Shown piece after piece: positions 44,735 through 63,654 of a stretch of 64,000 bases of DNA; positions within the stretch are counted from its first letter, which is position 1; each line of letters begins with the position of its first letter. Location: assembly GCF_003990445.1 (NCBI RefSeq), contig NZ_REEZ01000004.1, positions 310,001 to 374,000 on the forward strand, given 5' to 3'. Position numbers and translations under genes: made by a program. Under the pieces are notes generated by a model. The model was not told where the DNA came from, searched no databases, and saw only the letters and a list, made by a program, of their open reading frames with translations. Source of the stretch: Pararhodobacter zhoushanensis. Lineage in GTDB: Bacteria > Pseudomonadota > Alphaproteobacteria > Rhodobacterales > Rhodobacteraceae.

Positions 44735-44741
44735 GTCATTC

Positions 44742-44758
44742 TTTTCGTATTGCGAAAC
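44742..44758. promoter_or_regulatory. Operator-like inverted repeat 1 (likely IclR site)
   Basis: TTTTCGTATTGCGAAAC differs by one base from the element at 46602-46618. It lies between the divergent citryl-CoA lyase and intradiol dioxygenase genes, close to the lyase start and about 95 bases before the dioxygenase start. TTTCG/CGAAA arms with a 5-base centre resemble sites of IclR-family regulators of aromatic catabolism, and an iclR-type gene lies in between. Confidence 0.75.
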
Positions 44759-44853
44759 TTTTTTCTCTTGCCGAAGACTACGGGCGCAGATTAGGCTTCG
44801 TCAAGCCACTTTGTTCGGCCCTTGCCGGACGTGCGAATGAGGGAGAAGGCACC

Positions 44854-45711: not shown

Positions 45712-45717
45712 GACGCT

Positions 45718-46521
45718 GTGAGCGACGACGAAAACAGACCAGCGGGCTTTGTCGAGGCTCTGGCCAAGGGCATCGCGATCCTTGAGAGCTTCGATGCCAG
45801 CCACAGCGAAATGACGCTGTCCGAGGTCGCGCGCCGGGTGGACGTTTCTCCGGCAGCGGCGAGGCGGGGTCTGATCACGCTGATCGAGCTGGGCTATGTC
45901 GGCCAGAACGCCAAGCGTTTTCACCTGAAACCCAAGGTGATGGCGCTGGGCTCGTCGTTCTATTTCGCCACGCGGGTGGATGAGATCATCCTGCCCGATC
46001 TGCGGCGGTTGGTTGAGACGTTTGGCGATGCGGCTTCGGTCGGGACGCTGAACGATCACAACGTGATCTACGTCGCGCATTACTCGCAGCAGCGCGCCCG
46101 GCGCGCCTCGGCCGTGGTGGGGGCCAGCTATCCTGCCTTTGCCACCTCGATTGGCCGGGTGATGCTGGCGGGACTGTCCGATGACGCGCTGGACCGCTGG
46201 CTTGAGGGGCTGACGCCGGTGCCGCTGACCTCGCGCACGCTGACCGACAAGGGGGCCTTGCGCGAAGAGGTGCTGCGCGTGCGCGAGCAGGGCTATGCGA
46301 CGACGGTGGATCAGCTGGATTATGGCATCACCGCCATTGCCGTGCCCATCGTCAACGATGAGGGTCGCACCGTCGCCGCGATCAACAGCTCGGGCTACAG
46401 CGGCATGGTCGCGCCCGAGGCGCTGGTCAGCGAACGCCTGCACGAGCTGCGCGCCGTTGCGTCGTCGATTGCCCTTCAACTGGCCCGTTATCCAACGCTG
46501 CGGGCGGTGCTGGGCGACTGA
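45718..46521 (+). CDS. IclR-family transcriptional regulator (aromatic catabolism type)
   Basis: A 267-residue regulator. An N-terminal winged helix-turn-helix (about 10-75) includes MTLSEVARRVDVSPAAARRGLITLIELGYV, and the C-terminal effector domain (about 90-260) has ASYPAFATSIGRVMLAGLS, YATTVDQLDYGITAIAVPI and SERLHELRAVASSIALQL. This subgroup includes PcaR/PobR-like regulators of aromatic acid pathways. The GTG start lies six bases after the dioxygenase stop, so they are cotranscribed. The two similar inverted repeats on either side are its likely binding sites. Confidence 0.92.
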   Translation: MSDDENRPAGFVEALAKGIAILESFDASHSEMTLSEVARRVDVSPAAARRGLITLIELGYVGQNAKRFHLKPKVMALGSSFYFATRVDEIILPDLRRLVETFGDAASVGTLNDHNVIYVAHYSQQRARRASAVVGASYPAFATSIGRVMLAGLSDDALDRWLEGLTPVPLTSRTLTDKGALREEVLRVREQGYATTVDQLDYGITAIAVPIVNDEGRTVAAINSSGYSGMVAPEALVSERLHELRAVASSIALQLARYPTLRAVLGD

Positions 46522-46601
46522 GCGCGAAATTTACGTGTATCGTCACGCGAACAGGCTTGACGGAGCCTAAACCGCTCCGTACTTTTCGTTATAAGCAAGA
46601 A

Positions 46602-46618
46602 TTTTCGCATTGCGAAAC
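46602..46618. promoter_or_regulatory. Operator-like inverted repeat 2 (likely IclR site)
   Basis: TTTTCGCATTGCGAAAC, with perfect TTTCGC/GCGAAA arms around ATT, lies 55 bases upstream of the demethylase-like gene. A half-site TTTTCG occurs 19 bases earlier (46583-46588). It shares 16 of 17 bases with 44742-44758. Confidence 0.78.
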
Positions 46619-46673
46619 ATTAGACTGCGCCGGGCCAGAAAGCCGCGCACCATCAGACACCAGGGAGGATCCG

Positions 46674-48050
46674 ATGAACAAACCCCAAACCTTCGCCCCG
46701 GCGACGCTGCAAGACGCGCTCGACACCGCAGGCGGCGCGATCAACCTGCTGCGCTCGTCGCAGCTGGGCACCACGATCTTTCCGGGCATCCCGGCTGAAT
46801 TCACCAACTGGCGCGACGAACAGCGCGCGTGGAAAGAAAGCGTCGCGCTGCTGGAGCAGACCTATCACATGACCGAAGTGCATGTGCGCGGGGCCGATGC
46901 GCTGGAGTTCATGTCGCGCCTGTCGACCAACCGGCACGACAATTTCACCACCATGCGCGCCAAGCAGGTGGTCATGTGCGGCCCCGACGGCCGGATGATC
47001 TCGGACGCGGTGGTGTTCCGTGAGGAAGACGATTTCATGCGCGTCGTCGGCCCGCCCACAGCGGCGAACTGGGTTGAGTTCAACGCAACCAAAACCGACC
47101 TGAACGTCACCTCCACCCGCGACGAGAATTTCATCCGCCCGCGCGCCCGGCGTGATGTGTTCCGCTTTCAGGTGCAGGGCCCCAACGCGCTGCCCCTGAT
47201 GCAGGAAGTGACCGACGGCACGCTGCCGGACATCAAGTTCTTCCATATGGGTGCCTTCAAGATCGCTGGTCGCGATGTGCGCGCCGTGCGGCATGGCATG
47301 GCCGGAACGCCGGGTTTTGAGGTGTACGGCGACTGGGACGATCAGGCTGCGGTGCGTGAGGCGGTCGAGCGTGTCGGTGCGAAATACAAGCTGCGCAAGG
47401 CGGGCTCGGTCACCTATGGCACCGCCGCGCAGGAAAGCGGCTGGATGCCGCGCCCGCTGCCCGCGATCTATGAAACCGACGACATGGCCGAATATCGCGC
47501 CTGGATCCCGGCCCAGTCGTTCGAGGCCGCCGGATCGTTGGGCGGCAGCTATATCTCGGACAAGATCGCCGATTACTATGTCGAGCCGTATGAAGTGGGT
47601 TACGGCAATCTGGTGAACTTCGACCACGATTTCATCGGTCGGGCCGCGCTGGAAGAGCTGAAGCTGAACCAGAAGCGCCGCAAGATGACGCTGATCTGGA
47701 ACAATGACGATGTGTTCCGCGTGCTGAAGAACTCGCTGCGCACCGACGGGCCGCGCACCAAGTTCATCTCGCTGCCGGTGCCGATGTATTCGTCGTTTCA
47801 GGCGGATCAGGTGCTCTCGAACGGCAAGCCGGTCGGTGTGTCGAACTGGATGTCGTACTCGTCGAACGCCGGTGCGGTTCTGTCGACGGCGCTGATGGAC
47901 ATTGAGCACGCCGTGGTCGGCAACGAGGTGACGCTGCTCTGGGGCGAGCCGAACAGCCGCCGCAGCACGGTCGAAGAGCACGAGCTGACCGAGATCCGCG
48001 CCACCATCGCGCCGGTGCCCTATTACGACAAGACGATCAAGAAAGACTGA
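46674..48050 (+). CDS. GcvT/LigM-like aminomethyltransferase-fold protein, probable tetrahydrofolate-dependent aryl O-demethylase
   Basis: A 458-residue protein with the glycine-cleavage T-protein fold. It lacks the pattern of true GcvT and instead has the LigM/DesA-type layout: VHVRGADALEFMSRLSTN near residue 70, QVQGPNALPLMQEV near 168, ESGWMPRPLPAIYETDDMAEYRAWIPAQSFEAAGSLGGSYISDKIADYYVEPYEVGYGNLV in the middle as a continuous conserved stretch, and FDHDFIGRAALEEL after it. LigM and DesA move the methyl of vanillate, 3-O-methylgallate or syringate to tetrahydrofolate. GGAGGA precedes the ATG at 46674. DmdA-like demethylation of another methyl donor is the alternative. Confidence 0.82.
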   Translation: MNKPQTFAPATLQDALDTAGGAINLLRSSQLGTTIFPGIPAEFTNWRDEQRAWKESVALLEQTYHMTEVHVRGADALEFMSRLSTNRHDNFTTMRAKQVVMCGPDGRMISDAVVFREEDDFMRVVGPPTAANWVEFNATKTDLNVTSTRDENFIRPRARRDVFRFQVQGPNALPLMQEVTDGTLPDIKFFHMGAFKIAGRDVRAVRHGMAGTPGFEVYGDWDDQAAVREAVERVGAKYKLRKAGSVTYGTAAQESGWMPRPLPAIYETDDMAEYRAWIPAQSFEAAGSLGGSYISDKIADYYVEPYEVGYGNLVNFDHDFIGRAALEELKLNQKRRKMTLIWNNDDVFRVLKNSLRTDGPRTKFISLPVPMYSSFQADQVLSNGKPVGVSNWMSYSSNAGAVLSTALMDIEHAVVGNEVTLLWGEPNSRRSTVEEHELTEIRATIAPVPYYDKTIKKD

Positions 48051-48095
48051 TCCGGCACGCCCCCCGGGTTGGCGGGGGAACACGTCAGACACGCG

Positions 48096-48122
48096 AAAGG
48101 GCGGCCTTTGGGCCGCCCTTTC
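48096..48122. terminator. Bidirectional intrinsic terminator
   Basis: AAAGGGCGGCC (48096-48106), loop TTTG, GGCCGCCCTTT (48111-48121). The stem is perfect and symmetric, with A-tract and T-tract, so it can end both the demethylase gene and the convergent aldehyde-dehydrogenase operon. Confidence 0.9.
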
Positions 48123-48186
48123 TGCACCCGACTGGTGCCACCTGCAGGCAGGCCGCGCCGGGGCGCGACCTGCCGTTCACGTCCGA

Positions 48187-49632
48187 TCAGATCGGGTAGT
48201 GCTGGTGCGGATCTTCGATGGTGATCCAGCGCATCTGGGTGAACTCGGTGATGCCGTCATTGCCGCCAAAACGCCCGTGACCCGAGGCTTTCACGCCACC
48301 AAAGGGCATCTGCGCCTCGTCCGAGACGGTCGGACCGTTGATGTGGCAGATGCCGCTCTCGACCCGCTCGGCCACCGCCATGGCGCGCTTCAGATCGCGC
48401 GAATGGACAGCCGAGGACAGCCCGTATTCGGTGTCATTGGCCACGCGCACCGCTTCGTCGTCGCCCTTGACGCGGATCACCGATTTGACCGGGCCAAAGC
48501 TTTCCTCGCGGTAGATGCGCATTTCCGAGGTCACGCCGTCGATGACACCAGCCGGAACGATCGCCCCGTCGCGCTTGCCACCGGCCAGCAGTTTGCCGCC
48601 CTTGGACACAGCGTCCGCGACCAGCGCGTCGATCTTTTCCGCCGCCCCTTGGGTGATCAGCGAGCCCAGCGCCACCTGACCGCGCGGGTTGCCGACCGGC
48701 AGGGCGGCGGCGCGTTCAGCCAGTTTGGCGACGAAGGCGTCGGCGATTTTCTCGTCAACGATGATCCGCTCGGTCGACATGCAGATCTGGCCCTGGTTCA
48801 TGAACGAGCCGAACACCGCCGCGTTGACCGCGCCGTCCAGATCGGCGTCGTCCAGAACGATCAGCGGGGCCTTGCCGCCCAGTTCCAGCAGCACCGGTTT
48901 GAGGTTCTCACCAGCCAGACGGCCAATGATGCGGCCCACGCCGGTCGAGCCGGTGAAGTTCACATGCTTGACCGCGTCATGTTCGATCAGCGCGGCGACG
49001 AGGCCAGCGGCATCCTCGGGCGCGTTGGTGACGACGTTCAGCACGCCATCGGGCAGCCCGGCTTCGGCAAAGCAGGTGCCGATCAGCAGGTGCGTGGCCG
49101 GGCACATTTCCGAGGCTTTCAGGATCACCGAGTTGCCACAAGCCAGCGCAACCGCCACGGCGCGGACGCCCAGAATGACCGGCGCGTTCCAAGGGGCCAT
49201 GCCCAGACAGATGCCATGCGGACGGCGCTGACCCATGGCCATGCAGCCGGGCTTGTCGGACGGGATGATTTCGCCCTTGATCTGCGTGGTGATCGAGGCC
49301 GCCTCGCGTAGGATGCCCGACGCGAACCAGACGTTGAACCCGCCCCACGGCCCGGTCGATCCGGTCTCGGCCGTCATCAGTTCGGTGAATTCAGCCGATT
49401 TCGACGCCAGAATATCAGCGGCGGCGTTCAGGATGCGGCGGCGCTCGTTCGGGCCGGTCTTGGACCAGACGTCAAAGCCTGCCTGCGCGGCGGCGATGAT
49501 GGCGGGCACGTCGGCGGCGGTGGCGGCGGGCGCGGTGGTGGCAACGTCGCCGGTCACCGGATCGCGGCGATCAAACGTCTTGCCGCTGTCGGCACCCACG
49601 GATTTGCCCGCGATCAGCATGTCTATCTTCAT
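48187..49632 (-). CDS. Aldehyde dehydrogenase, vanillin/benzaldehyde dehydrogenase type
   Basis: A 481-residue NAD(P)-dependent enzyme. It shows MAPWNAPVILGVRAVAVALACGNSVILKASE, FTGSTGVGRIIGRLAG, catalytic Glu in LELGGKAPLIV and catalytic Cys in GQICMSTERIIV. The short spacing and MSTERI motif match vanillin and salicylaldehyde dehydrogenases (Vdh, LigV, DoxF). It is last in the leftward operon, 36 bases after the preceding gene, with GGGAGGAC before the ATG. It would oxidise vanillin released by stilbene cleavage to vanillate, the substrate expected for the neighbouring demethylase. Confidence 0.9.
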   Translation of the reverse strand: MKIDMLIAGKSVGADSGKTFDRRDPVTGDVATTAPAATAADVPAIIAAAQAGFDVWSKTGPNERRRILNAAADILASKSAEFTELMTAETGSTGPWGGFNVWFASGILREAASITTQIKGEIIPSDKPGCMAMGQRRPHGICLGMAPWNAPVILGVRAVAVALACGNSVILKASEMCPATHLLIGTCFAEAGLPDGVLNVVTNAPEDAAGLVAALIEHDAVKHVNFTGSTGVGRIIGRLAGENLKPVLLELGGKAPLIVLDDADLDGAVNAAVFGSFMNQGQICMSTERIIVDEKIADAFVAKLAERAAALPVGNPRGQVALGSLITQGAAEKIDALVADAVSKGGKLLAGGKRDGAIVPAGVIDGVTSEMRIYREESFGPVKSVIRVKGDDEAVRVANDTEYGLSSAVHSRDLKRAMAVAERVESGICHINGPTVSDEAQMPFGGVKASGHGRFGGNDGITEFTQMRWITIEDPHQHYPI

Positions 49633-49668
49633 GGTAGTCCTCCCTTTTGGGCCTGTTGGGGCCCGTTC

Positions 49669-51117
49669 TCAGTGTTGGTGAATGCTCTTGACCACCAGAC
49701 AGGCGGCCAGTCCTTCGGGGCCATCCTCGGACCCGTGGCCCGAGTGTTTGACGCCCTGAAACGGCGCATCGGCATAGGCCATGCGCATCACGTTGATGCC
49801 GACCATCCCGGCCTCCAGCGCGGCCCCGATCCGGTTCGCCATGCGCCCGTTCTCGGTAAACGCATAGGCGGCCAAACCAAAGGGCAAACGGTTGGCTTGC
49901 TCGACGACCTCATCAAAGCTTTGAAACCGGGCGGCGGCGACCACCGGGCCGAACGGCTCTTCGTTCATGATCCGCGCGTCGAGCGACAGGTCAGTCAGGA
50001 CGGTTGGCTGGAAGAAGTAACCCTGATTGCCGATCCGCTCACCCCCCGTCAGCACCCGCGCGCCGCGCGAGGTGGCGTCAGCCAGCAGGCCCTCGACCGC
50101 CTCAGGGCGGCGGGCATTGGCCATCGGGCCCATCTGTGTGGCCGGGTCCAGCCCGTCGCCGATCCGCATCGCCGCCAGCCGCTGGCTGAGGGCCGAGACG
50201 AAGCGGTCGTGGATGCCGTCCTGCACATAAAAGCGCGTCGGTGACACGCAGACCTGCCCGGCGTTGCGCGATTTCGCCATCGCCAGCAGATCGACGGTAC
50301 GGTCGAAATCGCAATCGTCGAACACGATGACCGGCGCGTGGCCGCCCAGCTCCATCGTGGTGCGCAAGGCATTGTCAGCCGCCAGTTTCATCAGGTGCTT
50401 GCCGACCACGGTCGAGCCGGTGAAGCTGCATTTGCGGATGACGGGTGAGGCGAGCAGATGGCGCGAGACCTCATCGGGCACGCCGAACACCAGCTGACAC
50501 ACGCCGCGCGGAAGGCCCGCGTCGAGCAGCGCCTGCACCACGGCCATGGCGGATGCCGGGGCCTCCTCGGCCGGTTTCAGGATCACCGAGCAGCCCGCCG
50601 CGATGGGCGCGCCCAGCTTGCGGCCGGGGTTGTGGATGGGGAAGTTCCACGGCGCGAAGGCGGCGACGGGGCCGACCGGCTCTTTCATCACCAAGGACCG
50701 TTCACCATCCGGGCGCACCAGCACGCGGCCATAGATGCGCTTGGCTTCGGCGGCGTAGAAGTCGAACAGATCAGCGCAGCCGTGCAGCTCGATCTTGGTC
50801 TCCTGCAGGGTCTTGCCCTCTTCCAGCGTGGCGTTGCGGGCGATCATCTCACCCCGCTCACGCAGCAGGCGCGCGGCCCCGGTCAGCACGGCGGCGCGTT
50901 CCTCGGGCGTCGATTTGCGCCAGAGTTTGAAGCCCTTGTCGGCGGACTCCAAAGCGCGGTCCAGATCGGCGGCATTGGCCAGCGGCAGTTCGGCCAGCAC
51001 CTGACCCGTGGCCGGGTGCCGCACCTCAAAGCTGCGGCGCCCCTCGGCGCCCAGCCATTCGCCGTCGATGTGCAGCTTGAGTTGCGGGTAATCCTGCGAA
51101 CCGGTGATGGTTGTCAT
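49669..51117 (-). CDS. Aldehyde dehydrogenase, succinate-semialdehyde dehydrogenase type
   Basis: A 482-residue NAD(P)-dependent dehydrogenase. Motifs: FAPWNFPIHNPGRKLGAPIAAGCSVILKPAEE, FTGSTVVGKHLMKLAA, Glu in MELGGHAPVIVF and Cys in GQVCVSPTRFYV. I chose the ATG at 51117 because GAGGA precedes it by six bases, whereas the ATG at 51123 directly abuts that site. Despite the family name it may act on an aromatic or side-chain aldehyde here, since this cluster is catabolic. Confidence 0.9.
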   Translation of the reverse strand: MTTITGSQDYPQLKLHIDGEWLGAEGRRSFEVRHPATGQVLAELPLANAADLDRALESADKGFKLWRKSTPEERAAVLTGAARLLRERGEMIARNATLEEGKTLQETKIELHGCADLFDFYAAEAKRIYGRVLVRPDGERSLVMKEPVGPVAAFAPWNFPIHNPGRKLGAPIAAGCSVILKPAEEAPASAMAVVQALLDAGLPRGVCQLVFGVPDEVSRHLLASPVIRKCSFTGSTVVGKHLMKLAADNALRTTMELGGHAPVIVFDDCDFDRTVDLLAMAKSRNAGQVCVSPTRFYVQDGIHDRFVSALSQRLAAMRIGDGLDPATQMGPMANARRPEAVEGLLADATSRGARVLTGGERIGNQGYFFQPTVLTDLSLDARIMNEEPFGPVVAAARFQSFDEVVEQANRLPFGLAAYAFTENGRMANRIGAALEAGMVGINVMRMAYADAPFQGVKHSGHGSEDGPEGLAACLVVKSIHQH

Positions 51118-51126
51118 GGTCATTCC

Positions 51127-52617
51127 TCAGGTCAGCGCCACGGTGACGGTTTTCAACTCGGTATAGATTTCCAGCCCGGCGCGCCCGTTTTCACGCCCAA
51201 AGCCCGAGGCCTTGAAGCCGCCCAGCGGCAGCGCCGGATCGGGCGGGCCCGAGCCATTGATGCGCACGGTCCCGGCGCGCAGCCGGTTGGCCAGCTTGTG
51301 CGCGCGGGTGATGTCCTGGGTCCAGATGGCCGAGGACAGCCCGTACTGCGAATCGTTGCCGCGCGCTGCGATGGTGTCGAGATCGTCGTCACCAAAGCGC
51401 ATCAGGCACAGGACCGGGCCGAAGATTTCCTCACGCGAGACGCTCAGATCGGCGCCGGGTTCGAGCAGGATCGTCGGCTCGATGAAATAGCCCGCGTCGC
51501 CCTTGGTGTTGCCACCGGCCAGCAGGCTGACGCCCGCCTCGCGCCCGGCCTCGATATAGCTGGCCACCCGGTCGCGCTGGCGGGCGCTGATCAGCGGGCC
51601 CATCTCGGTCGCCGGATCGGTGCCCGGCCCGACGCGCAAGGATTGCGCGCGGGCGGTCAGCCCCTCGGCCACGCGGTCAAAAACGCTGGTGTGGACGAAC
51701 AGGCGCGAGCCGGCGGCGCAGACTTGCCCTGCATTGCCGAAGATGCCCATCGCGGCGGCGGGGATGGCGCGCTCAAGGTCCGCGTCGCCGAAGATGAAGG
51801 TGGGGGATTTGCCGCCAAGTTCCAGCGTGACGCGCTTCATCGTCGCCGCGCTCTCGCGCAGGATCTGCTGGCCGACGAGGGTGGAGCCGGTGAAGGAAAT
51901 CTTGTCCACGCCGGGATGCGCAACCAGCGCGGCCCCGGCCTGATGGCCATAGCCGGTGACGATGTTGACCACACCCGCCGGAAAGCCTGCCTCAGCCACC
52001 AGCCGGGCGAGGCGCATGGCCGAGAGCGGCGCTTGCTCGGCGGGTTTCAGCACCACGGTGCAGCCAGCGGCCAGTGCGGCGGCCAGTTTGCCCACGGCCA
52101 TGACCAGCGGGAAATTCCACGGGGTGATCGCGCCGACCACGCCGACGGCTTCACGCCGGGTGTAGCCCAGCCATTCACCGGGCCATGAGGGCGTGATCGT
52201 CTCGCCGCCCAGCTTGGTTGCCCAACCGGCGAAATAGCGCAGCATGCCGACCGCGCCCATCACGCCGCCCATCTTGGCCATCATCAGCGGCATGCCGTTA
52301 TCGAGGCTCTCGGTCAGCGCCAGAGCGTCGGCATCGGCGGCGACCAGATCTGCCAGTTTCAGCAACATATCCTGCCGCCGTGCGGGGGGCAGGCCCGACC
52401 AGCGGCCATCGTCGAAGGCTTGGCGCGCGGCCTTCACCGCCGCGTCGATATCCGCCGCCTCACCGGCCGAGGCCTGCGAGAGCAGCGCGCCGGTGGCGGG
52501 GTCGAGGATGTCGATCAGCCCGTCGCCGCAGGGTGTGCGGAAATCGCCGTCGATGAACTGCTGCGCCGGGGCCTGTGCCAGAGCCGCGCGCAGGGGGATG
52601 GTGGGGTCTTGGGTCAT
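51127..52617 (-). CDS. NAD(P)-dependent aldehyde dehydrogenase
   Basis: A 496-residue enzyme of the classical ALDH group. Motifs: ITPWNFPLVMAVGKLAAALAAGCTVVLKPAEQ, FTGSTLVGQQILRESA, Glu in LELGGKSPTFIF and Cys in GQVCAAGSRLFV. It follows the second DUF3237 gene by nine bases and the next dehydrogenase begins nine bases after it. In the inferred pathway it would oxidise the aldehyde made by the GMC enzyme, or 5-formylferulate after stilbene cleavage. Confidence 0.92.
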   Translation of the reverse strand: MTQDPTIPLRAALAQAPAQQFIDGDFRTPCGDGLIDILDPATGALLSQASAGEAADIDAAVKAARQAFDDGRWSGLPPARRQDMLLKLADLVAADADALALTESLDNGMPLMMAKMGGVMGAVGMLRYFAGWATKLGGETITPSWPGEWLGYTRREAVGVVGAITPWNFPLVMAVGKLAAALAAGCTVVLKPAEQAPLSAMRLARLVAEAGFPAGVVNIVTGYGHQAGAALVAHPGVDKISFTGSTLVGQQILRESAATMKRVTLELGGKSPTFIFGDADLERAIPAAAMGIFGNAGQVCAAGSRLFVHTSVFDRVAEGLTARAQSLRVGPGTDPATEMGPLISARQRDRVASYIEAGREAGVSLLAGGNTKGDAGYFIEPTILLEPGADLSVSREEIFGPVLCLMRFGDDDLDTIAARGNDSQYGLSSAIWTQDITRAHKLANRLRAGTVRINGSGPPDPALPLGGFKASGFGRENGRAGLEIYTELKTVTVALT

Positions 52618-52626
52618 CGGATCACC

Positions 52627-53124
52627 TCAGCGAATGGCGTAGTAGCGAAACAGCGAATGGTCGGGCGGGTCATTGGGATCGACCTGTGGGCGGCGCTGCG
52701 CGACGCCGACGATCACCGTGCGGTTGAGCCAGGCATGCGGGCCATTCTCGGGCGCGCGGAAATAGGGCGTGCAGCGGAAATAGGCGGGGACATCGGCGGG
52801 CTCGTCCGGCCCTTGCCCTTGTGTGCGCAGCGGGCGGTGTACGTAGCCCAGATTGCGGATGTAGATCAGCGCGCCGTCGTCGGCCTCGATCATGTAATGC
52901 GCGTTCAGCTCGACCACGTGATCGGCGCGCACCACGGGCCAGTCGGCCCCGGAATAATCGACCAGCTTGCCGTTCAGCAGCGGGCCGGTGATCACGCTGC
53001 CCTCGCCGACCGAGGTATAGCCCTGCACAGCACCGCCATAGATCGGCCCGGTGGACCAGCGGCGGTCAAAGTTGATCTGGATGTCGAAAGCATGCTCATA
53101 GGTGAGCGCCAAAGGATCGGTCAT
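52627..53124 (-). CDS. DUF3237 protein 2 (PhcF/PhcG-like candidate decarboxylase)
   Basis: A 165-residue beta-rich protein. It shares with the first DUF3237 protein the pattern RADHVVELNAHYMIEADDGALIYIRNLGYVHR (as a paralogous stretch) and AYFRCTPYFRAPENGPHAWLNRTVIVG. In Sphingobium SYK-6 two DUF3237 proteins, PhcF and PhcG, are enantiospecific decarboxylases in phenylcoumaran catabolism. The start at 53124 overlaps the GMC stop as ATGA; the longer frame runs into that gene. Function is inferred from family and context. Confidence 0.85.
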   Translation of the reverse strand: MTDPLALTYEHAFDIQINFDRRWSTGPIYGGAVQGYTSVGEGSVITGPLLNGKLVDYSGADWPVVRADHVVELNAHYMIEADDGALIYIRNLGYVHRPLRTQGQGPDEPADVPAYFRCTPYFRAPENGPHAWLNRTVIVGVAQRRPQVDPNDPPDHSLFRYYAIR

Positions 53125-54755
53125 GCGTCTTCCATGTGTTGAGGGGCGGGGGCCGTGCGGCCCAGCAGCAGGTCGGCTGCCTTTTCCGCGATCATGATGG
53201 CCGGGGCCTGGGTGTTGCCACCGGGAATGTCGGGCATCGAGGCACAATCGGCCACCCGCAGCCCGTCGATACCGCGCACGCGCAACTCGGCGTCGAGCAC
53301 AGCATCCGGCCCGGTGCCCATCGCGCAGGTCGAGGTCGGGTGCATCGCTGTGCGCACGGCGGCGCGGACGAAGCTGTCGATCTCGGCATCGGATTGCAGT
53401 GCGTCGGGGGGTAGGATGGCGCGGGTGACCATGCTGGCGGCGGGCTCGGTGGCGAAGAAATCGCGCACCAGCCGGACATAGCGGCGGAACGCGGCGCGGT
53501 CGGCCTCGGCTTGCAGAAGGTTGTACTGGATCAAGGGTTTGGCGGCGGGATCGTTCGAGGCGAGCTTGACCCAGCCCCGGCTTTCGGGATGCAAAAGCAC
53601 GCTGGCGACCGAGAAGCGCGAACCGACAGAGGGGCGCAGGCCGGGCACCCAGACGTGGTTGTTCATCGCCAGCGGGCTGATCAGCAGTTGCAGGTCAGGC
53701 CGGTCGAGACCTTCGCGCGTGCGCACGAACCCTTGTAAACCGACCGGCAGTCCCCCGACGGGGCCCGAGCCATTCGCGGCCCAACGCAGGACCGAGCGGG
53801 CCATGCGGTCAAGCCGCAGCTCGCGGTCAAAGGTGAAATCGCCTGAGGCCTGATAGAAATGCGCGATCGAGGCGTGTTCCTGCAGGTTGCGGCCAACGCC
53901 GGGCAGGTCGTGCAGGGGTGTTATGCCCGCTGCTTGCAGTTCGTCCGCCGGGCCGATGCCGGACAGCATCAGGATTTGCGGCGAGCCGTAGGCACCGGCG
54001 CAGAGGACGACTTCGCGGGTGGCGGTGATCCGTTGGACCGCGCCGCCCGTCTGCACCTCGATCCCCACGGCGCGGCCCGCTTCGATCAGCACGCGGCTGA
54101 CCAGCGCCTTGGAGAGAACCGTCAGGTTACCGCGCGCCATCGCCGGGCGCAGGAACCGCGCGGCGGTCGAGCCGCGACGGCCCTGATGCGTGTTGAATTC
54201 GGGCGTGGCGAAGCCTTCGTGCTGCGCGCCGTTGAAGTCATCGGTGAGCGCATAGCCCATCGCCTGCGCGGTCTGTTGCAGGCGAGGGTGGACGTAGGCG
54301 TCGGGCTGGTGCGCGGCCACGCTCAGTGGCCCGCCTGCCCCGTGGTGCGAGGACGCACCCGCCCAGTGGTTCTCGGACCGTTTGAAATACGGCAGCACGT
54401 CGTCAAACGACCAGCCGCGCAGGCCCTTTTGCGCCCAGCCATCGTAGTCGCTGGCCGCGCCGCGCGAATACATCATTCCGTTGATCGACGAGCACCCGCC
54501 GATCACCTTGCCGCGCGGCACGGGGATGCGGCGGTTGTCGGCGTAGGGTTCGGGCTGGGTTTCATAGCCCCAGCCCAGCGACGGCGTGTTCATCGCCTTG
54601 AACCACGCCAGCGGCATCGAGACGACCGGCGTGCGCTCGGACCCGCCCGCCTCGACCAGCAGCACCCGCAGTGCGGGGTCTTCGGACAGGCGGGCGGCGA
54701 GCACGCAGCCCGCCGACCCGGCACCGACAACGATGACATCGTAGCCGGTGGTCAT
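53121..54755 (-). CDS. GMC-family alcohol oxidoreductase (PhcC/PhcD-like role)
   Basis: A 544-residue FAD enzyme. The FAD motif is [19 protein letters not shown] (about 6-24). GMC signature 1 is [20 protein letters not shown], signature 2 lies in [20 protein letters not shown], and the catalytic His is in [10 protein letters not shown] with [15 protein letters not shown] at the end. It sits between the stilbene-cleaving enzyme and a DUF3237 gene, overlapping both by four bases. In Sphingobium, GMC enzymes PhcC and PhcD oxidise the side-chain alcohol of a phenylcoumaran acid, so I propose a similar role. Confidence 0.9.
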
Positions 54756-56224
54756 GCGGCGGGGGCCTCGGGCAGCATCGACGATGGCACCCAGTTGCCG
54801 TGCAGCCCGCCGCGCAGACGCAGTTCCAGCGGCATGCGGGCGATGGGGCCTTCATCGACGCGCTGCGCATCGAACAGCACCAGATCCGAGCGATGCTCGG
54901 CTAGCATGTTCTCGATGGCGACCAGATAGCCGTCGCCCTCGTTGATGCTGCCGGGGCGCGGGATGAAGGCGGGTTCCTGCAGGGTCGAGGTCGGGCCGGT
55001 CCAGTAGCTTTTGGTCTCGCCGGTGGCGTGGTCCATGTGGCCCAGGACGTTGGTCATCAGGCCCGACATCGAGCGGCCATTGGGCAGCTCCAGCGGGCGC
55101 GCGAAATCCTGCGCCAGCATGTAGCCGTGGCGGTAGGGCATCGAGGCATAGCGGTCGTCGATGCGGGGGAATTCACCGATGAAATCGGACAACTGCACCA
55201 TCGAATGGAACCCGTCCGACTTGCTGCCCAGATCCACGCACCAGCGAGTCATGCGGGCGGCGGATTCGGCGCGGTTGAACTCGGCCCCGTGCACATCGGG
55301 GAAGAAGGGAAAGCCGTTGTTCTTGGCCATCGGGACGTCGAAATAGACCTTCTCGCCGTCGTTGAAGGCATTCATCACATGGCTGGCAAAGCAGTTGGGG
55401 GCCTTGAACCAGCGCACGTCCTTGGCATCACCGCGACGCGGCAGGATGCCCAGATAGACCTCTTTGGTGGTATCAAAACCGAAATGCGGCAGCCCGGCTT
55501 CCAGACGCTCCCATGAGCTGACGATGGGGACGACGTGGAAACAGGCGTAATCCTCGGTCAGGCCAAAGTCGTGCATCATGCAGTAATAGGGCAGCTCGAA
55601 CCAAACCTCGTGCTTGATTTTGTTCTGCGGGTCGATCTCATAGTAAACCATGTCGCGGGTGATCAGACCTTTGGCCGCATAGCCAAACGCGCACATATCG
55701 CCCGTGTTAGGGTCGAATTTAGGGTGGGCGGTGAAGGTCTGGCTGGTGATCTGGCCGCCCAGATCGCTGTAGCCCTCGGTCTCGAGTGTCCAGGGGTCCA
55801 TCATCACCGGCGGGCTGTCTTCTTTCAGCGCCCAGAGCTTCTTGTTCTGCACGACGACGTTGGTGTTGGCAGTGCCGCGATACTCGCCCTTGACGCTTTC
55901 ATCATCGGTCAGCGGGTTGCGGTAGGCGCCGAACAGGGCCTTGCCGGCCTCACGTTCCAGCTTGAACTTGTCGGTGCGCACGTAGCGTTGCTTGAAATCG
56001 ACGCGCCCGTTCTTGAACCGGAAGGACGAGACCATGCCGTCGCCGTTGAACGGGATGTCGTTGCCCAGCCGGGGCGGAAATTGCGCATCGGGAGCGACGC
56101 GGAAAAAGATGCCGTCCAGATCGCTGGGAACCTCGCCGATGACCTCAAGATCCTTGACGTCGGCCTCCATGCGCGAGGGTTTGTTGAAGCCCTGAAAGCT
56201 GGGATGGTTGGGAAAAGCCTGCAT
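54752..56224 (-). CDS. Carotenoid-oxygenase-family lignostilbene dioxygenase
   Basis: A 490-residue non-haem iron(II) enzyme that cleaves the central double bond of a stilbene into two aldehydes. The four iron ligands are visible: His167 (TAHPKFD), His218 (MMHDFG), His282 (ASHVMNAF) and His475 (GLHGNWV). The residues known to bind the phenol of stilbenes in LsdA and NOV1 fall at the same numbers here: Phe59 (DIPFNGDG), Tyr101 (FGAYRNP) and Lys134 (WALKED). There is no signal peptide, so it is cytoplasmic. It is coupled to the GMC gene by a four-base overlap. A carotenoid or apocarotenoid substrate is less likely. Confidence 0.93.
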   Translation of the reverse strand: MQAFPNHPSFQGFNKPSRMEADVKDLEVIGEVPSDLDGIFFRVAPDAQFPPRLGNDIPFNGDGMVSSFRFKNGRVDFKQRYVRTDKFKLEREAGKALFGAYRNPLTDDESVKGEYRGTANTNVVVQNKKLWALKEDSPPVMMDPWTLETEGYSDLGGQITSQTFTAHPKFDPNTGDMCAFGYAAKGLITRDMVYYEIDPQNKIKHEVWFELPYYCMMHDFGLTEDYACFHVVPIVSSWERLEAGLPHFGFDTTKEVYLGILPRRGDAKDVRWFKAPNCFASHVMNAFNDGEKVYFDVPMAKNNGFPFFPDVHGAEFNRAESAARMTRWCVDLGSKSDGFHSMVQLSDFIGEFPRIDDRYASMPYRHGYMLAQDFARPLELPNGRSMSGLMTNVLGHMDHATGETKSYWTGPTSTLQEPAFIPRPGSINEGDGYLVAIENMLAEHRSDLVLFDAQRVDEGPIARMPLELRLRGGLHGNWVPSSMLPEAPAA

Positions 56225-56281
56225 GATCGTCTCGCTGTTCTGTGGGGTCAGGCCGCGCGCTGCGCGGGCCGCAAGGGGCGA

Positions 56282-56740
56282 TCAGGTCACCCGGTAAAAA
56301 CGCACCTTCACGCCGTCGCGATAGCGCGCGCCGGTGCAGACAAAGACGCTGCGGTTGAGCCAGTCGTAGCGGCCTTCGGGCGCGGTGAAGACGGGGGTGG
56401 TGCGGAAATAATATTCGGCCGGATCAACCTCTTGCCCCTGCATCATGCGTTGCATGACGGACGGCGGGCCGTGGCGAACGCCGCGATTGCGGCACTCGAT
56501 GCGCACGCCGTCGTCGGTTTCCAGCAGGTACATCGCGTCGACTTCGGTCACGCCATCGGCGCGGATCAGCTGCCAGTCGAAGCCGCTGACCATATGGCCG
56601 CTGATGTCCGGGCCAACGAAGGGGCCGCCCGCATCAATCGGGATCACCTGCCGCCGCCCTGTGGGCACCGGACCGATAACCTGCGGCGGGCTGACGCCGC
56701 CGGTGGCTTCAAACACGAATTCCAGACCCGGTTCGTTCAT
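56282..56740 (-). CDS. DUF3237 protein 1 (PhcF/PhcG-like candidate decarboxylase)
   Basis: A 152-residue protein paralogous to the one at 52627-53124. Common elements are GFDWQLIRADGVTEVDAMYLLE, CRNRGVRHG and YYFRTTPVFTAPEGRYDWLNRSVFV. No signal peptide is present. A pair of DUF3237 proteins around a GMC enzyme and a lignostilbene dioxygenase is the arrangement expected for enantiospecific decarboxylation of a phenylcoumaran carboxylate to a stilbene. It follows the solute-binding gene after a hairpin and precedes the dioxygenase by 57 bases. Confidence 0.85.
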   Translation of the reverse strand: MNEPGLEFVFEATGGVSPPQVIGPVPTGRRQVIPIDAGGPFVGPDISGHMVSGFDWQLIRADGVTEVDAMYLLETDDGVRIECRNRGVRHGPPSVMQRMMQGQEVDPAEYYFRTTPVFTAPEGRYDWLNRSVFVCTGARYRDGVKVRFYRVT

Positions 56741-56763
56741 TGCAGTTCCCCGTCAAGGCAAGG

Positions 56764-56788
56764 GGGCGCCGGGACAGGCCCGGCGCCC
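56764..56788 (-). terminator. Hairpin after the family-5 solute-binding gene
   Basis: GGGCGCCGGG (56764-56773) and CCCGGCGCCC (56779-56788) form a perfect 10-base-pair stem seven bases after the stop codon. There is no T-run, so readthrough into the catabolic genes is expected. Confidence 0.55.
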
Positions 56789-56794
56789 GCCAGA

Positions 56795-58321
56795 TCAATC
56801 GTCGAGCGTCACTTCAGAGATCATCGCGCGGACCAGATGGCGCGGCGGCGGGTTATAGTGGACCCCGTCGCGCATGGCGTAGACGGCCATGTTGTTCCAC
56901 AGCGAGATCTGCGGCACGTCGTCGTGCAGGATGCGCGTTGCCTCAACCACCAGCGGGCCGCGAACCTCGGGATCGACGGTCTGGACGGCCTGTGCCACCA
57001 GCGCGTCAAACGCCTCGTTCCGGTATTGCGAGAAGGGCGAGGCCGACCAATAGGTGAAGGCCAGCGCGATGGTCGGGTCGAAATATTCGGCCATCGGAGT
57101 GGGCGTGATGCCGACCCAATCCTCGGTCGTCGGGTTCGCTGTCGCGGCGCGCAGGCGGCCGACGAAATCGGGCACGTCCAGACTGGAGACCTGCGTATTG
57201 ATGCCGACCTGTTGAAGATACAGCGCCACAGCCTCGGCCGTTTCGCGCAGGCCCGAGTTCTCGCCGTGCCACCAGATCAGCGGCATATCAAAGCCGTTGG
57301 GGTAACCTGCATCGGCCAGCAACTGCCGTGCCAGCGCCGGATCGTAGCTGTAGTTTTCAAGCGTCTCGTCATAGCCGACTTCGCCGGGCGCAAAGCGCGG
57401 GTGGCGGCCCGGAACGCCGTGGAACAGCCCTTCGACGATACCATCGGCATCAATCGCATGGGCAACCGCCAGCCGGACGCGCACGTCATGCCAGGGCACA
57501 TCGGGGTTGTTGAGGGTAAATTGAACCGAAACCGTCGGTGTGACCGCGATTTGTGCGGTGGTGAAGCCGTCGGCTTCAAGGCGGTCGCGCTCCATGAACG
57601 GGACGTTCAGGATCAGGTCAGCCTCGCCAGCGCGCAGCATGGCCACGCGGGTGCTGTCCTCACCGGCGAACACGAAGCGCAGATGCTTCACGTCAGGCTC
57701 ACCGCCCCAGTAGTCGGGGTTGGCCTCAAGGATCATTTCCTGCGCCGGGGTATAGCTGACAAAGCGGTAGGGGCCGGTGCCGTTGGGGTGCGAGACGAAC
57801 TCGTCCTCACCCACGCGGTCGTAATAGGCCTTGGACACGATCGACAGGTTGCGCGGCGGCAGGAAGGTGACGTCCGCCGAGCTGAAGACCATGCGCACGG
57901 TCATGTCATCGACGCGCTCGATATGGTCGAAATTGCGCAGGCGCGACTGGTAGATGCGCGAGCGTTCCGCCGTGCGTTCGTGGCTGAAAATGATGTCGTC
58001 GGCGGTCAGCGGATCGCCGGAATGGAAGGTCACGCCTTCGCGCACACGCAGCGTCAGGATGCGGCCCTCGTCCGAGTATTCGAACGACAGGACGCCGGGC
58101 ACCAGATTGCCCTGGGCATCCAGACCGACCATCGGCTCGATGATGTTTTCCAGAACCGGGCGCGAGATCACGGTGTTGACCGAAATCGTCGGGTCCAGCG
58201 TGTCGGGCTGGTGGTTGATCGCCACGACGAACATGTCGTCCGAGGCAAGAGCGGGGGCAAAGCTGGCGGCCGTGAGGCCAAGTGCCATCGCCACCGCAGA
58301 GGCGGTGCGTCTCACTGTCAT
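56795..58321 (-). CDS. Family-5 extracellular solute-binding protein of an ABC importer
   Basis: A 508-residue periplasmic receptor. Signal peptide about 1-26 (hydrophobic AVAMALGLTAASFAPALA). Family motifs: VAINHQPDTLDPTISVNTVISRPVLENI, FHSGDPLTADDIIFSHERT and EANPDYWGGEP. Oligopeptide-type receptors are also used for glycosides, opines and aromatic dimers. The matching permease and ATPase genes lie beyond the MarR-type gene at 59766-63560 and are on the same strand. It is first in the apparent stilbene operon, suggesting the ligand is the substrate of the pathway. Confidence 0.92.
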   Translation of the reverse strand: MTVRRTASAVAMALGLTAASFAPALASDDMFVVAINHQPDTLDPTISVNTVISRPVLENIIEPMVGLDAQGNLVPGVLSFEYSDEGRILTLRVREGVTFHSGDPLTADDIIFSHERTAERSRIYQSRLRNFDHIERVDDMTVRMVFSSADVTFLPPRNLSIVSKAYYDRVGEDEFVSHPNGTGPYRFVSYTPAQEMILEANPDYWGGEPDVKHLRFVFAGEDSTRVAMLRAGEADLILNVPFMERDRLEADGFTTAQIAVTPTVSVQFTLNNPDVPWHDVRVRLAVAHAIDADGIVEGLFHGVPGRHPRFAPGEVGYDETLENYSYDPALARQLLADAGYPNGFDMPLIWWHGENSGLRETAEAVALYLQQVGINTQVSSLDVPDFVGRLRAATANPTTEDWVGITPTPMAEYFDPTIALAFTYWSASPFSQYRNEAFDALVAQAVQTVDPEVRGPLVVEATRILHDDVPQISLWNNMAVYAMRDGVHYNPPPRHLVRAMISEVTLDD

Positions 58322-58431
58322 GGTGTTCCTCCCATTCGCTGATCCCGCGACGCAAGGGTCTCCCGCCCCCTGTTTTGCCGCCGCAAGGGCCGGATCTCTG
58401 CGACGCGTTGCACCACAGACCGGCCTTATTC

Positions 58432-58460
58432 GTCATATGTCTGATGGATTAGTGAGTCAA
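58432..58460 (-). promoter_or_regulatory. Candidate promoter of the solute-binding/stilbene operon
   Basis: On the minus strand TTGACT (58460-58455), a 17-base spacer and TATGAC (58437-58432) form a good sigma-70-like promoter. It would give a leader of about 105 bases before the solute-binding protein. Confidence 0.6.
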
Positions 58461-58469
58461 GAAATGAAT

Positions 58470-58484
58470 ATACGGGACCCGTAT
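58470..58484. promoter_or_regulatory. 15-base palindrome, likely MarR-type operator
   Basis: ATACGGGACCCGTAT is a perfect 7+1+7 palindrome. It starts ten bases upstream of the -35 box and lies between the solute-binding gene and the divergent tandem MarR gene. This is the best candidate operator in the 350-base space 58322-58671; the rest of that space shows no gene. Confidence 0.7.
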
Positions 58485-58671
58485 TTGTTCCTTGCTGCGA
58501 TCCAACGGCAGAAGCACCCCTTTGCCGCGCTGCAGCGCCGTTGCCTTCAAGGCCACAGGCGGTGACAAAGCGCCAGACTTGGGAGCTTTAGCCTTGCCAT
58601 AGGGGGGCAAATCCGCCAATCGACAGAGAAATCATCAGATGACACTGCGCGTGGAATGATCAGGGCCCGGG

Positions 58672-59769
58672 ATGAACGCAACTGCCAATGCTGACACGCT
58701 GCTTGCGGCGCTGACCCAAGAGCCGGTCGATGCCGAAGCGCAGCGCATCGCGGCCACGCTGGATACGTTCTATACGCGCCCCGGTTACATGATCCGGCGC
58801 GCGCATCAGATCTCGAACGCATCCTTTGTCGAGGATCTGGGATCGCTGGGCATCACGCCGACGCAGATGTCCTCGCTGGTGGTTGTCTGCGATTGCCCCG
58901 GCATTGATCAGATCACCCTTGCGCGGCGTATCGGCGTGGACCGCACCACCGCGTCCATGGTGGTCAACGGGTTGGCACAGCACGGTTTTCTGCGCTGCGA
59001 ACGCTCGGCCCGTGATGCCCGCCGCAATGAGGTGACGGCGACCCGCGCCGGCATGGCCTGCACCCAGCTGGCGCGCGATTTCGCGATGACCAACAAGGGC
59101 AAGCTGCTGCATGCCTTCACGCCCCAGGATGAGGCAACGCTGCAATCGCTGCTTCAGCGGCTGATCGACAATGTTCCTGCCTCGCCGCCCGAATGGATCC
59201 GCCCGGATGGCACCGTCCATTTCGGCACCGAAGAGGCTTTCGCCGAGGATTTTCCGGGGCATTTCGGTCTGTACACCGCCTTTGGTTTCCTGCTGCGGCG
59301 GGCGCATCAGACGCTGGAGGCCGCGTTCATCGACTGCTGCCAGCCGGTGAACCTGACGCCGCGCCGCTACGGCGTGCTGCGCGTGGTCGAGGTGGCCGAG
59401 CCGCTGGAGCAGATCGCGCTGGCGCGTTGGCTGGCGCTGGATGGCTCGACCGCGGCGTCGGTGGTGACCGAGCTGGTGCGGCGGGGACATCTGGACCGCA
59501 CCCCGCATCCCAGCGACCGCCGCCGCCGTTTGCTGCAGTTGACGGATGAAGGCCGGACGCTGGTGGAAACCGCGCTGCCACTGGCGCGCGCTGCCAGCCT
59601 GCGGGCGCTGGCGGTGCTGGGCGACGATGCCGCCGAGTTCGGCCGGTTGATGCAGCTGTTTCTGGTGTCCAACGACTCGCTGAGCCGCGTGGCGAGCGAG
59701 CGCGCCGTCACCCAGCGCGCCGCTCAGTTCTTGCAAGACGGCCTCGTGCCGTCCGCCGACCCGCGCTAA
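58672..59769 (+). CDS. Tandem MarR-family regulator (two fused winged-helix domains)
   Basis: A 365-residue protein made of two MarR modules. Repeat 1 covers about 37-135 and repeat 2 about 204-302; GYMIRRAHQISNASF aligns with GFLLRRAHQTLEAAF, and VDRTTASMVVNGLAQHGFL aligns with LDGSTAASVVTELVRRGHL. MarR proteins normally act as dimers of about 150 residues, so this is a single-chain version. It probably senses an aromatic ligand and controls the divergent operon through the palindrome at 58470-58484. The ATG at 58672 lies just after a GGGCCCGGG stretch; the ribosome site is weak. Its end overlaps the convergent ATPase gene by four bases. Confidence 0.85.
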   Translation: MNATANADTLLAALTQEPVDAEAQRIAATLDTFYTRPGYMIRRAHQISNASFVEDLGSLGITPTQMSSLVVVCDCPGIDQITLARRIGVDRTTASMVVNGLAQHGFLRCERSARDARRNEVTATRAGMACTQLARDFAMTNKGKLLHAFTPQDEATLQSLLQRLIDNVPASPPEWIRPDGTVHFGTEEAFAEDFPGHFGLYTAFGFLLRRAHQTLEAAFIDCCQPVNLTPRRYGVLRVVEVAEPLEQIALARWLALDGSTAASVVTELVRRGHLDRTPHPSDRRRRLLQLTDEGRTLVETALPLARAASLRALAVLGDDAAEFGRLMQLFLVSNDSLSRVASERAVTQRAAQFLQDGLVPSADPR

Positions 59770-60755
59770 GCCGCGACGCTCTGCGTCAGGGCGTGGCAGG
59801 TCGCCACGGACCCGTCCGGTCCCGGCACGCTGGGGGGTGCCACCTGACGGCAGACATCCATCGCCAGCGGGCAACGCGGGTGGAAATGGCAGCCTTTGGG
59901 CGGGTTCAGGGGCGACGGCACCTCGCCCTCGATCTTGCGCTGTTCGGTTTTCAGCGGCCCCGGATTGACCGTGAGCGCCGAGGCAAACAGCGCCTTGGTG
60001 TAGGGGTGACGCGGGTTGTCGGCGATCTGCCGCGCCGGGCCCTGTTCGACGATGCGGCCCAGATACATCACCGCGATCCAGTCGCACATGCTGGCGACCA
60101 GTTCCAGATGATGCGAGATCATGAAATAGGCCAGCCCGAGTTCGTCCTGCAAGTCGGCCAGCAGGTTCAGGATCTGTGCGCGCACCGACACATCCAGCGC
60201 CGAGACCGGCTCGTCCAGGATCAGCAGCCGTGGGTTCAGCGCCAGAGCGCGGGCGATGGCGATGCGCTGGCGCTGCCCGCCGGAAAACTCGTGCGGTCCC
60301 TGCTGCGCCATGCGCGGGCTCAGGTTGACCAGTTCCAGCAGTTCAGCCACCCGGTGGTCAATCTGCGTGCGGCTGAAACGGCCGGTGGCGATCATCGGCT
60401 CGGCAATGATCTCGCGCACCTTCATGCGCGGGTTGAGCGAGCCATAAGGGTCTTGAAACACCGTCTGGATATTGCTGCGATACGCGTTCAGCGCAGGCCC
60501 CGTCGCCTGATGCACCGGCGCGCCGTCGAACAGGATTTCGCCCTCGGTCGGCTCCATCAGCCGCAAGAGTAGCCGTGCGGTGGTGGACTTGCCGCAGCCG
60601 CTTTCGCCAACCAGACCAAAGGTTTGCCCGGCGCGCACTTGCAGGTTGATGCCATCAACCGAGCGGATCACGCTTTTCGAGCGCGCGAAGGGCAGGCCCT
60701 TGCGAAAGAAGAAGTGCTTGCTCAGGTTGCGGGTTTCCAACAACAGATCACTCAT
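59766..60755 (-). CDS. OppF/DppF-type ABC transporter ATPase
   Basis: A 329-residue ATPase. Walker A GESGCGKST, signature FSGGQRQRIAIARALALNP, Walker B LLILDEPVSALD, and the oligopeptide-type C-terminus with HPYTKALFASAL and the CHFHPRCPLAMDVCR cysteine cluster, which in DppF-like proteins binds an iron-sulfur centre. I chose the ATG at 60755 since it overlaps the upstream stop as ATGA; the longer frame lies in the neighbouring gene. It works with the ATPase encoded just upstream. Confidence 0.93.
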   Translation of the reverse strand: MSDLLLETRNLSKHFFFRKGLPFARSKSVIRSVDGINLQVRAGQTFGLVGESGCGKSTTARLLLRLMEPTEGEILFDGAPVHQATGPALNAYRSNIQTVFQDPYGSLNPRMKVREIIAEPMIATGRFSRTQIDHRVAELLELVNLSPRMAQQGPHEFSGGQRQRIAIARALALNPRLLILDEPVSALDVSVRAQILNLLADLQDELGLAYFMISHHLELVASMCDWIAVMYLGRIVEQGPARQIADNPRHPYTKALFASALTVNPGPLKTEQRKIEGEVPSPLNPPKGCHFHPRCPLAMDVCRQVAPPSVPGPDGSVATCHALTQSVAA

Positions 60756-62661: not shown

Positions 62662-62666
62662 GGCGC

Positions 62667-63560: not shown

Positions 63561-63654
63561 CGTGCGTCTCCTGAGGTCGGGGCGCCGGTCCTTTGGGGGA
63601 CGCACAGCGCGAGGTCGTCATAGGACGAAGGGAAGGGCAAAGCGGGCGCGTGCA

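Follow-up and report, generated by a model that had tools for sequence, protein, structure and literature searches.

Most reports of pathways for the catabolism of phenylcoumaran-type (beta-5) lignin dimers come from sphingomonads. The best known, the dehydrodiconiferyl alcohol (DCA) pathway of Sphingobium SYK-6, is split over separate clusters. By locus tags, one SYK-6 cluster comprises phcFG-lsdB-phcCD and the other ferD-ligW2-lsdD (PMC12997858); the two are about 0.4 Mb apart, with ligV in addition. In Novosphingobium aromaticivorans F199, pcfL-ferD-ligW-lsdD are close together (PMC12997858). At a threshold of at least 50% identity, PcfL-pathway sets occur in 82 organisms, all but one of them Sphingomonadales, and PhcC/D and PhcF/G homologs occur in 32 organisms (PMC11323797). 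The allylic side-chain dehydrogenases of SYK-6 were called unidentified in 2021 (PMC8191317), and according to PMC12997858 no transporters have yet been implicated for these dimers. Here, these systems are compared with a contiguous 17-gene block that begins in a 64,000-nucleotide stretch of Pararhodobacter zhoushanensis DNA (contig NZ_REEZ01000004.1, positions 310,001 to 374,000; hereafter the window). Homology and clade placement suggest that the block is a compact version of the sphingomonad pathway, probably for beta-5 dimers such as DCA derivatives.

The block shares with the SYK-6 DCA pathway a lignostilbene dioxygenase (LSD), a PhcC-like and a PhcD-group GMC oxidoreductase, a PhcF-like DUF3237 protein, FerD-like and LigV-like aldehyde dehydrogenases (ALDHs), a counterpart of the ALDH adjoining phcD, and a tandem MarR protein adjoining decarboxylase genes. 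Unlike SYK-6, it is contiguous and co-encodes an ATP-binding cassette (ABC) importer with two binding proteins, and one of its DUF3237 proteins (DUFc) is of a separate type. Because PhcG and LigW were looked for and not found, the block is set apart from the SYK-6 pathway, though it would work like it. With F199 it shares an LSD gene close to a FerD-like ALDH gene, whereas in F199 the gamma-formaldehyde lyase PcfL replaces the GMC and DUF3237 proteins; the PcfL-type family is absent from the block's genes, to which that search was confined. The original prediction, made from the letters of the window, took the Phc and Lsd genes to be scattered in Sphingobium, which is half right given the two SYK-6 clusters and the close grouping in F199. 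A literature search returned no report of this block, and none of the matches listed ties lignostilbene to Rhodobacterales or names Roseinatronobacter. Among sponge-symbiont genomes, COG3670 (lignostilbene dioxygenase) marks one group of Alphaproteobacteria (PMC6374434).

Organization of the block

Eight genes form a minus-strand run at 48187-58321, in the order SBP1 (solute-binding protein), DUFa, LSD, GMC1, DUFb, ALDH3, ALDH2, ALDH1, with gaps of 54, 57, -4, -4, 9, 3 and 36 bases. The order and families are those originally predicted. So are the four-base overlaps, of which two (LSD/GMC1 and GMC1/DUFb) are within the run and two more, by coordinates, are next door in the ABC unit (OppB/OppD and OppD/OppF). 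The span first proposed, 48187 to 58484, is too small for the block. The run is half of the block, and the conserved region reaches about 69.2 kb, past the window edge. Genes beyond the edge were read on locus L101, whose coordinates plus 62000 give window coordinates. The rest of the block consists of a tandem-MarR regulator divergent to the run, an OppBCDF-type importer, GMC2, DUFc, SBP2 and a divergent flavin monooxygenase. The transporter and regulator that had been predicted for the run adjoin it. Each GMC gene directly abuts a DUF3237 gene (GMC1-DUFb and DUFc-GMC2). The features of the block within the window are as follows (percentages are identities).

48187-49632, minus: ALDH1, aldehyde dehydrogenase, LigV (vanillin dehydrogenase)-like; 58.6% to the SYK-6 ALDH at the expected place of ligV
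49669-51123, minus: ALDH2, FerD (5-formylferulate dehydrogenase)-like; 62.7% to SYK-6 FerD
51127-52617, minus: ALDH3, nearest to the SYK-6 ALDH adjoining phcD; 61.5% over 480 aa
52627-53124, minus: DUFb, PhcF-clade DUF3237 protein and, by analogy, a decarboxylase; 43% to PhcF
53121-54755, minus: GMC1, GMC oxidoreductase, PhcC-like; 51.7% to PhcC
54752-56224, minus: LSD, RPE65 family, lignostilbene alpha,beta-dioxygenase of the LSD1-4 clade (NCBIfam NF053778); 59.5% to LsdD/LSD4
56282-56740, minus: DUFa, DUF3237 protein of the lsdD-linked type; 59.3% to the DUF3237 protein adjoining lsdD in SYK-6
56795-58321, minus: SBP1, family-5 (Opp-type) solute-binding protein, SBP_bac_5 (PF00496); N-terminus signal-peptide-like by eye
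58672-59769, plus: tandem-MarR regulator, two MarR stretches
59766-60755, minus: OppF-like ABC ATPase (PF00005 and oligo_HPY)
60752-61747, minus: OppD-like ABC ATPase; 75% to the colinear annotated ABC ATPase in Roseinatronobacter sp. S2
61744-62661, minus: OppB-like permease, with its start deduced from the length of the S2 gene
62667-63605, minus: OppC-like permease
63655-64000, minus: GMC2, part in window (gene to about 65.26 kb on L101), in the clade holding PhcD; 52.3% to PhcD

The flavin monooxygenase gene (L101:5648-7237) is divergent from SBP2, and the S2 block contains a counterpart of it with 63% identity.

Placement of the enzymes

SYK-6 genes were located through the LsdD sequence, with locus tags from the table in PMC12997858. 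LSD scores 850.4 bits against NCBIfam NF053778 (lignostilbene alpha,beta-dioxygenase), for which the curated equivalog cut-off is 800. In the LSD tree, which like the ALDH tree is a quick tree without bootstrap, LSD groups with SYK-6 LSD1-4 and a single plasmid LSD (Shimodaira-Hasegawa-like approximate likelihood ratio test, SH-aLRT, 99). This clade excludes the four remaining SYK-6 LSDs and the three other RPE65 proteins of the window genome. Five histidine columns are common to LSD, LsdD and LsdB (H167, H218, H282, H399 and H475), four of which are presumably the iron ligands, as in LSD4. In the alignment, F59, Y101 and K134 are kept and S283 is present as S281. The roles of these four residues in LSD4 are described in PMC8191317. 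The three other RPE65-family proteins of the genome, encoded at C43:78010-80882 and C55:135025-136398 and two of them in tandem, fall outside the SYK-6 LSD branches.

In the 35-row GMC tree, GMC1 joins PhcC with support of 98/94, and with support of 97/96 in a later 26-row tree with two more PhcC sequences. GMC2 is within the clade holding PhcD in both trees (100/99). The 35-row tree contains as loci 10 of 15 family matches, the other five being already in, and 17 of 19 class-level matches (three candidates scored per genome), the other two being the window's own. One sequence with an internal stop (L209) was entered as its longest open piece. The 26-row tree contains 14 of the 27 earlier genome rows and four Aurantiacibacter proteins. 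Because GMC2 and DUFc are at or beyond the window edge, the tie to the Phc proteins is closer than could be seen from the window.

The ALDH1 sequence pairs with a SYK-6 ALDH at 735.6-737.0 kb (SH-aLRT 100), taken by locus-tag interpolation as the place of ligV, SLG_07060. ALDH2 pairs with SYK-6 FerD (SLG_12800 by place; SH-aLRT 100), and ALDH3 pairs with the SYK-6 ALDH adjoining phcD (SH-aLRT 99). The ALDH tree has 33 rows; 30 of 42 matches had loci, of which 25 were used and five were already present, and the 12 without loci were left out.

In the 32-row DUF3237 tree (seven of eight SYK-6 matches, one at 2935k being omitted, and all eight from N. capsulatum and all four from the window genome), DUFb is in a seven-row clade with PhcF (98/96). 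The inner fork that joins DUFb to PhcF's own group is weaker (89/82), and the identity of DUFb to PhcF is below the 50% line applied in PMC11323797. DUFa is in a nine-row clade of DUF3237 proteins that adjoin lsdD (95/98). The two DUF3237 proteins of the run had been predicted to be a PhcF/PhcG pair; DUFb bears this out, while DUFa is of the lsdD-linked type and no counterpart of PhcG was found. The PhcF and PhcG labels are themselves supported, since the proteins assigned as PhcG and PhcF have 42.3% and 39.2% identity to SYK-6 PinX; the values published for PinX of Novosphingobium rhizosphaerae LY are similar, 42% and 38% (PMC12607616). Phylogeny had been named as the test of the original prediction, and LSD, GMC1 and DUFb are inside the LSD1-4, PhcC and PhcF clades.

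In N. capsulatum, one run at L161:8184-10891 comprises a PhcG-like gene, a hydrolase-like gene (by reading) and a gene for a PhcF-like protein with 71% identity to DUFb. The 20 kb around this run contain no GMC-, LSD- or ALDH-like open reading frame at E <= 1e-5.

These placements bear on a pathway for pinoresinol or lariciresinol (beta-beta) dimers like PinZYXWVU of strain LY, which shares with the block the logic of oxidation, DUF3237 decarboxylation and LSD-type cleavage. The DUF3237 decarboxylase of that pathway is PinX, and its LSD homolog is PinU (PMC12607616). The only literature found on DUF3237 together with lignostilbene is this pinoresinol work, which treats PinX. The LY pathway differs in that it uses other LSD and DUF3237 clades. 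The DUF3237 proteins of the window are outside the PinX clade, and LSD does not group with SYK-6 LsdF, the protein to which PinU is matched in the table of PMC12997858. A pinoresinol function was rejected on these two placements and is very improbable.

Linkage and conservation in other genomes

The neighbourhoods of lsdD were surveyed in 80 loci, the best among 206 that are lsdD-like, in flanks of up to 10 kb per side; almost all of these loci have Sphingomonadales titles. Several flanks are cut at contig ends, and the genomes are related and do not represent independent events. The tblastn thresholds were at least 60% for SYK-6 lsdD-linked DUF3237 and FerD, 50% for SYK-6 LigW2 and PhcF/PhcG, and, for window queries, 48% for GMC1, 55% for ALDH3, 50% for ALDH1, 45% for OppD and 35% for SBP. 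The lsdD-linked DUF3237 gene (DUFa type) is present in 61 of the 80 loci, in each case downstream of lsdD on its strand, and no more than 100 bases away in 26. One example is L001:11550-12026, and 60 further loci are among L002-L078. FerD is found in 41 loci and a LigW2 relative in 48, while GMC1-like and ALDH3-like genes are found in two each. PhcF or PhcG, ALDH1-like, OppD-like and SBP-like genes are found in none of the 80 within the flanks; the 50% line is strict for PhcF, to which DUFb itself has only 43% identity. A blastp search of the 80 loci with all seven DUF3237 seeds (E <= 1e-6) recovers no DUF3237 proteins other than lsdD-linked types and a single PinX type.

Both loci with a GMC1-like gene are from Aurantiacibacter. 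In A. xanthus (L073:4413-11479) and A. rhizosphaerae (L076:4402-11479), an LSD gene is adjacent to and divergent from phcC-, phcD- and ALDH3-like genes, with 67-68% identity to PhcC, 60-62% to PhcD and about 60% to ALDH3. GMC1 has 54% identity to their PhcC-like protein. In the window, by contrast, LSD is inside the run. The Aurantiacibacter flanks contain no DUF3237 gene, importer, or FerD- or LigV-like ALDH. The LSD-phcC-phcD-ALDH linkage is therefore not unique to the block; this favours the proposed function and makes the arrangement less novel. The addition of a PhcF-type decarboxylase, a LigV-type ALDH and an importer is unseen in the 80 loci.

In Roseinatronobacter sp. S2, all 17 genes are colinear on a 613-kb plasmid (NZ_CP121115.1), with identities from 58.8% (regulator) to 88.8% (LSD), and both flanking neighbourhoods differ from those of the window. 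In another genome of the window genome's genus (G313), a 4.4-Mb contig carries the block with identities of 95.8-100%, some of the matches being partial at a cut between stretches. Because it recurs in these two genomes, the gene order is not a reading accident. At E <= 1e-60, LSD is found in two of 19 genomes of the genus. In the family it is found in two of 295 genomes, a sample with roughly a single genome for each of 294 genera that accessory copies can escape, and the second is a relative with only 33% identity whose 20-kb surroundings contain no other block gene. The block is therefore rare and accessory. In the window genome it is probably chromosomal, because genes that resemble serB, serC and serA by eye are to its right on the contig.

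Proposed function, alternatives and regulation

Catabolism of phenylcoumaran-type dimers is favoured because of the placements of LSD, GMC1, GMC2, DUFb, DUFa and ALDH1-3, together with the LSD score and the kept residues. It is also favoured because the same LSD-phcC-phcD-ALDH set is linked independently in Aurantiacibacter, because a tandem MarR protein is divergent from phcG in SYK-6 and the 17 genes are colinear in S2 between other flanks, and because both GMC genes abut a DUF3237 gene. More confidence attaches to the chemistry (oxidation, decarboxylation to a stilbene, cleavage, and oxidation of the aldehydes) than to the exact substrate.

Several observations weigh against this function. 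The set in one operon had been predicted to be nearly whole; LSD and the PhcC-, PhcF-, FerD- and LigV-like proteins are present, and no counterpart of PhcG or LigW was found. None of the four DUF3237 proteins of the window genome is in the PhcG clade, and DUFc, with 36% identity to PhcG, groups with its S2 ortholog alone. The best of ten PF04909 proteins in the genome has 28.6% identity to LigW2, the only LigW used in the comparison. The nearest SYK-6 relative of GMC2 is not PhcD but an uncharacterised GMC at 1214 kb (99/94, then 95/95 in the later tree). The DUFa-type DUF3237 is absent from both Aurantiacibacter loci. In G313, ALDH3 (L154:16539-18026) is in three pieces and two frames, either a broken gene or sequence errors. 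For the downstream monomers, the genome has no match to the N-terminal domain of protocatechuate 3,4-dioxygenase beta (PcaH-type) and its VanA_C match has only 52.6 bits. The LSD1-4 clade does not fix the substrate, because it is unresolved inside and, among LSD1-4, only LSD2, 3 and 4 are reported to cleave DCA-S efficiently (PMC8191317). In the NCBIfam profile comparisons, LSD exceeds its cut-off, while ALDH, GMC and regulator matches are all under theirs.

The low profile scores, and the large size of the GMC and ALDH families, would fit a generic aromatic alcohol or aldehyde operon in which the LSD-DUF3237 pair is a passenger. The four-base overlaps through LSD-GMC1-DUFb, the S2 colinearity with different flanks and the linkage of LSD to phcC-phcD-ALDH in Aurantiacibacter make this improbable. 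The block may instead degrade another stilbene-generating compound (a neolignan, a stilbenoid or an oxidised dimer acid) by the same chemistry. DUFa and DUFc are not PhcF/PhcG orthologs, the LigW-like protein expected of a DCA pathway was not found, the LSD family accepts several stilbenes (PMC8191317, PMC12997858), and an ABC importer fits a charged or polar substrate. The clades of GMC1, DUFb and ALDH2, by contrast, point specifically to PhcC, PhcF and FerD, and another substrate is somewhat unlikely.

For a beta-5 dimer, the substrates and steps suggested by the homologs are as follows. OppBCDF with SBP1 and SBP2 would import the dimer. GMC1 (PhcC-like) and GMC2 (PhcD-group), then an ALDH (perhaps ALDH3), would oxidise the ring-bound CH2OH to the acid. 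DUFb, and perhaps DUFc for the other enantiomer, would open the dihydrofuran by decarboxylation to give the stilbene. LSD would cleave the stilbene to vanillin and 5-formylferulate, and ALDH1 (LigV-like) and ALDH2 (FerD-like) would oxidise these aldehydes. In this scheme, none of the block's genes is assigned to allylic side-chain oxidation, to the LigW step or to the further metabolism of vanillate and ferulate.

The tandem MarR protein is probably a repressor of the divergent SBP1 operon, released when it binds a stilbene or dimer. SYK-6 contains a two-MarR-domain protein divergent from phcG. The Saro_0803-nov1 system likewise has a MarR-type regulator near an LSD-clade gene. The N-terminal half of the window regulator resembles the Saro_0803 family (140.5 bits, under the cut-off of 200), and the protein differs from Saro_0803 in having two fused MarR domains. 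Two non-coding features belong with the run.

58322-58671, no strand: SBP1/regulator intergenic region between divergent genes, probable promoter/operator, containing a perfect palindrome
48096-48121, no strand: hairpin, probable terminator between convergent genes, from fold statistics

The palindrome, ATACGGGACCCGTAT at 58470-58484, ends where the span first proposed ends. It is not in the S2 region and is not significant by a rough estimate. Promoter regions were compared with 18-base words and eight shuffles per pair. In the window genome, the regions of SBP1 and SBP2 share a match of 13 against 13-14 in shuffles, which is chance, and those of S2 share 14 against 13-14. The SBP2 regions of the window genome and S2 share 15 against 12-14, the only pair of six above all shuffles. 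An operator common to both units is not established by this comparison. The nov1 inverted repeat has 11 matches in the window (at most three mismatches) against 11.14 expected, none of them right of 44753. A sigma-70 promoter scan of 48000-64000 gives one site where 2.1 are expected. The hairpin, situated between ALDH1 and the convergent gene, has an 11-bp stem and a 51-nt stretch of -32 kcal/mol (z -5.38), with none of 200 shuffles as stable.

To the left of the run and convergent with it, 42789-48050 contains genes for a LigM/DesA-like O-demethylase (under both model cut-offs), an IclR regulator and an intradiol dioxygenase on the plus strand, and a citryl-CoA-lyase-like gene and a CoA-transferase III gene on the minus strand. 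These are possibly an aromatic monomer unit. Because the O-demethylase and intradiol dioxygenase are just left of the run, the monomer route may differ from that of SYK-6.

Taken together, the block can tentatively be read as a transferable, self-contained beta-5 module outside the sphingomonads, a fuller proposal that is itself rather doubtful. In such a module, the GMC1-DUFb and DUFc-GMC2 pairs would each serve one enantiomer. DUFc would have been recruited independently in place of PhcG, and another protein would replace LigW. DUFa would be a third, general partner enzyme of LsdD, and the importer would be the first dedicated ABC importer for a lignin dimer other than 5-5. If beta-5 catabolism is the function, this compact block, which includes an importer and a regulator, would provide other hosts with a ready-made unit for converting lignin dimers. 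The block also offers a natural GMC/DUF3237 pairing for the question of stereochemistry, and draws attention to the unstudied DUF3237 protein that widely accompanies lsdD.

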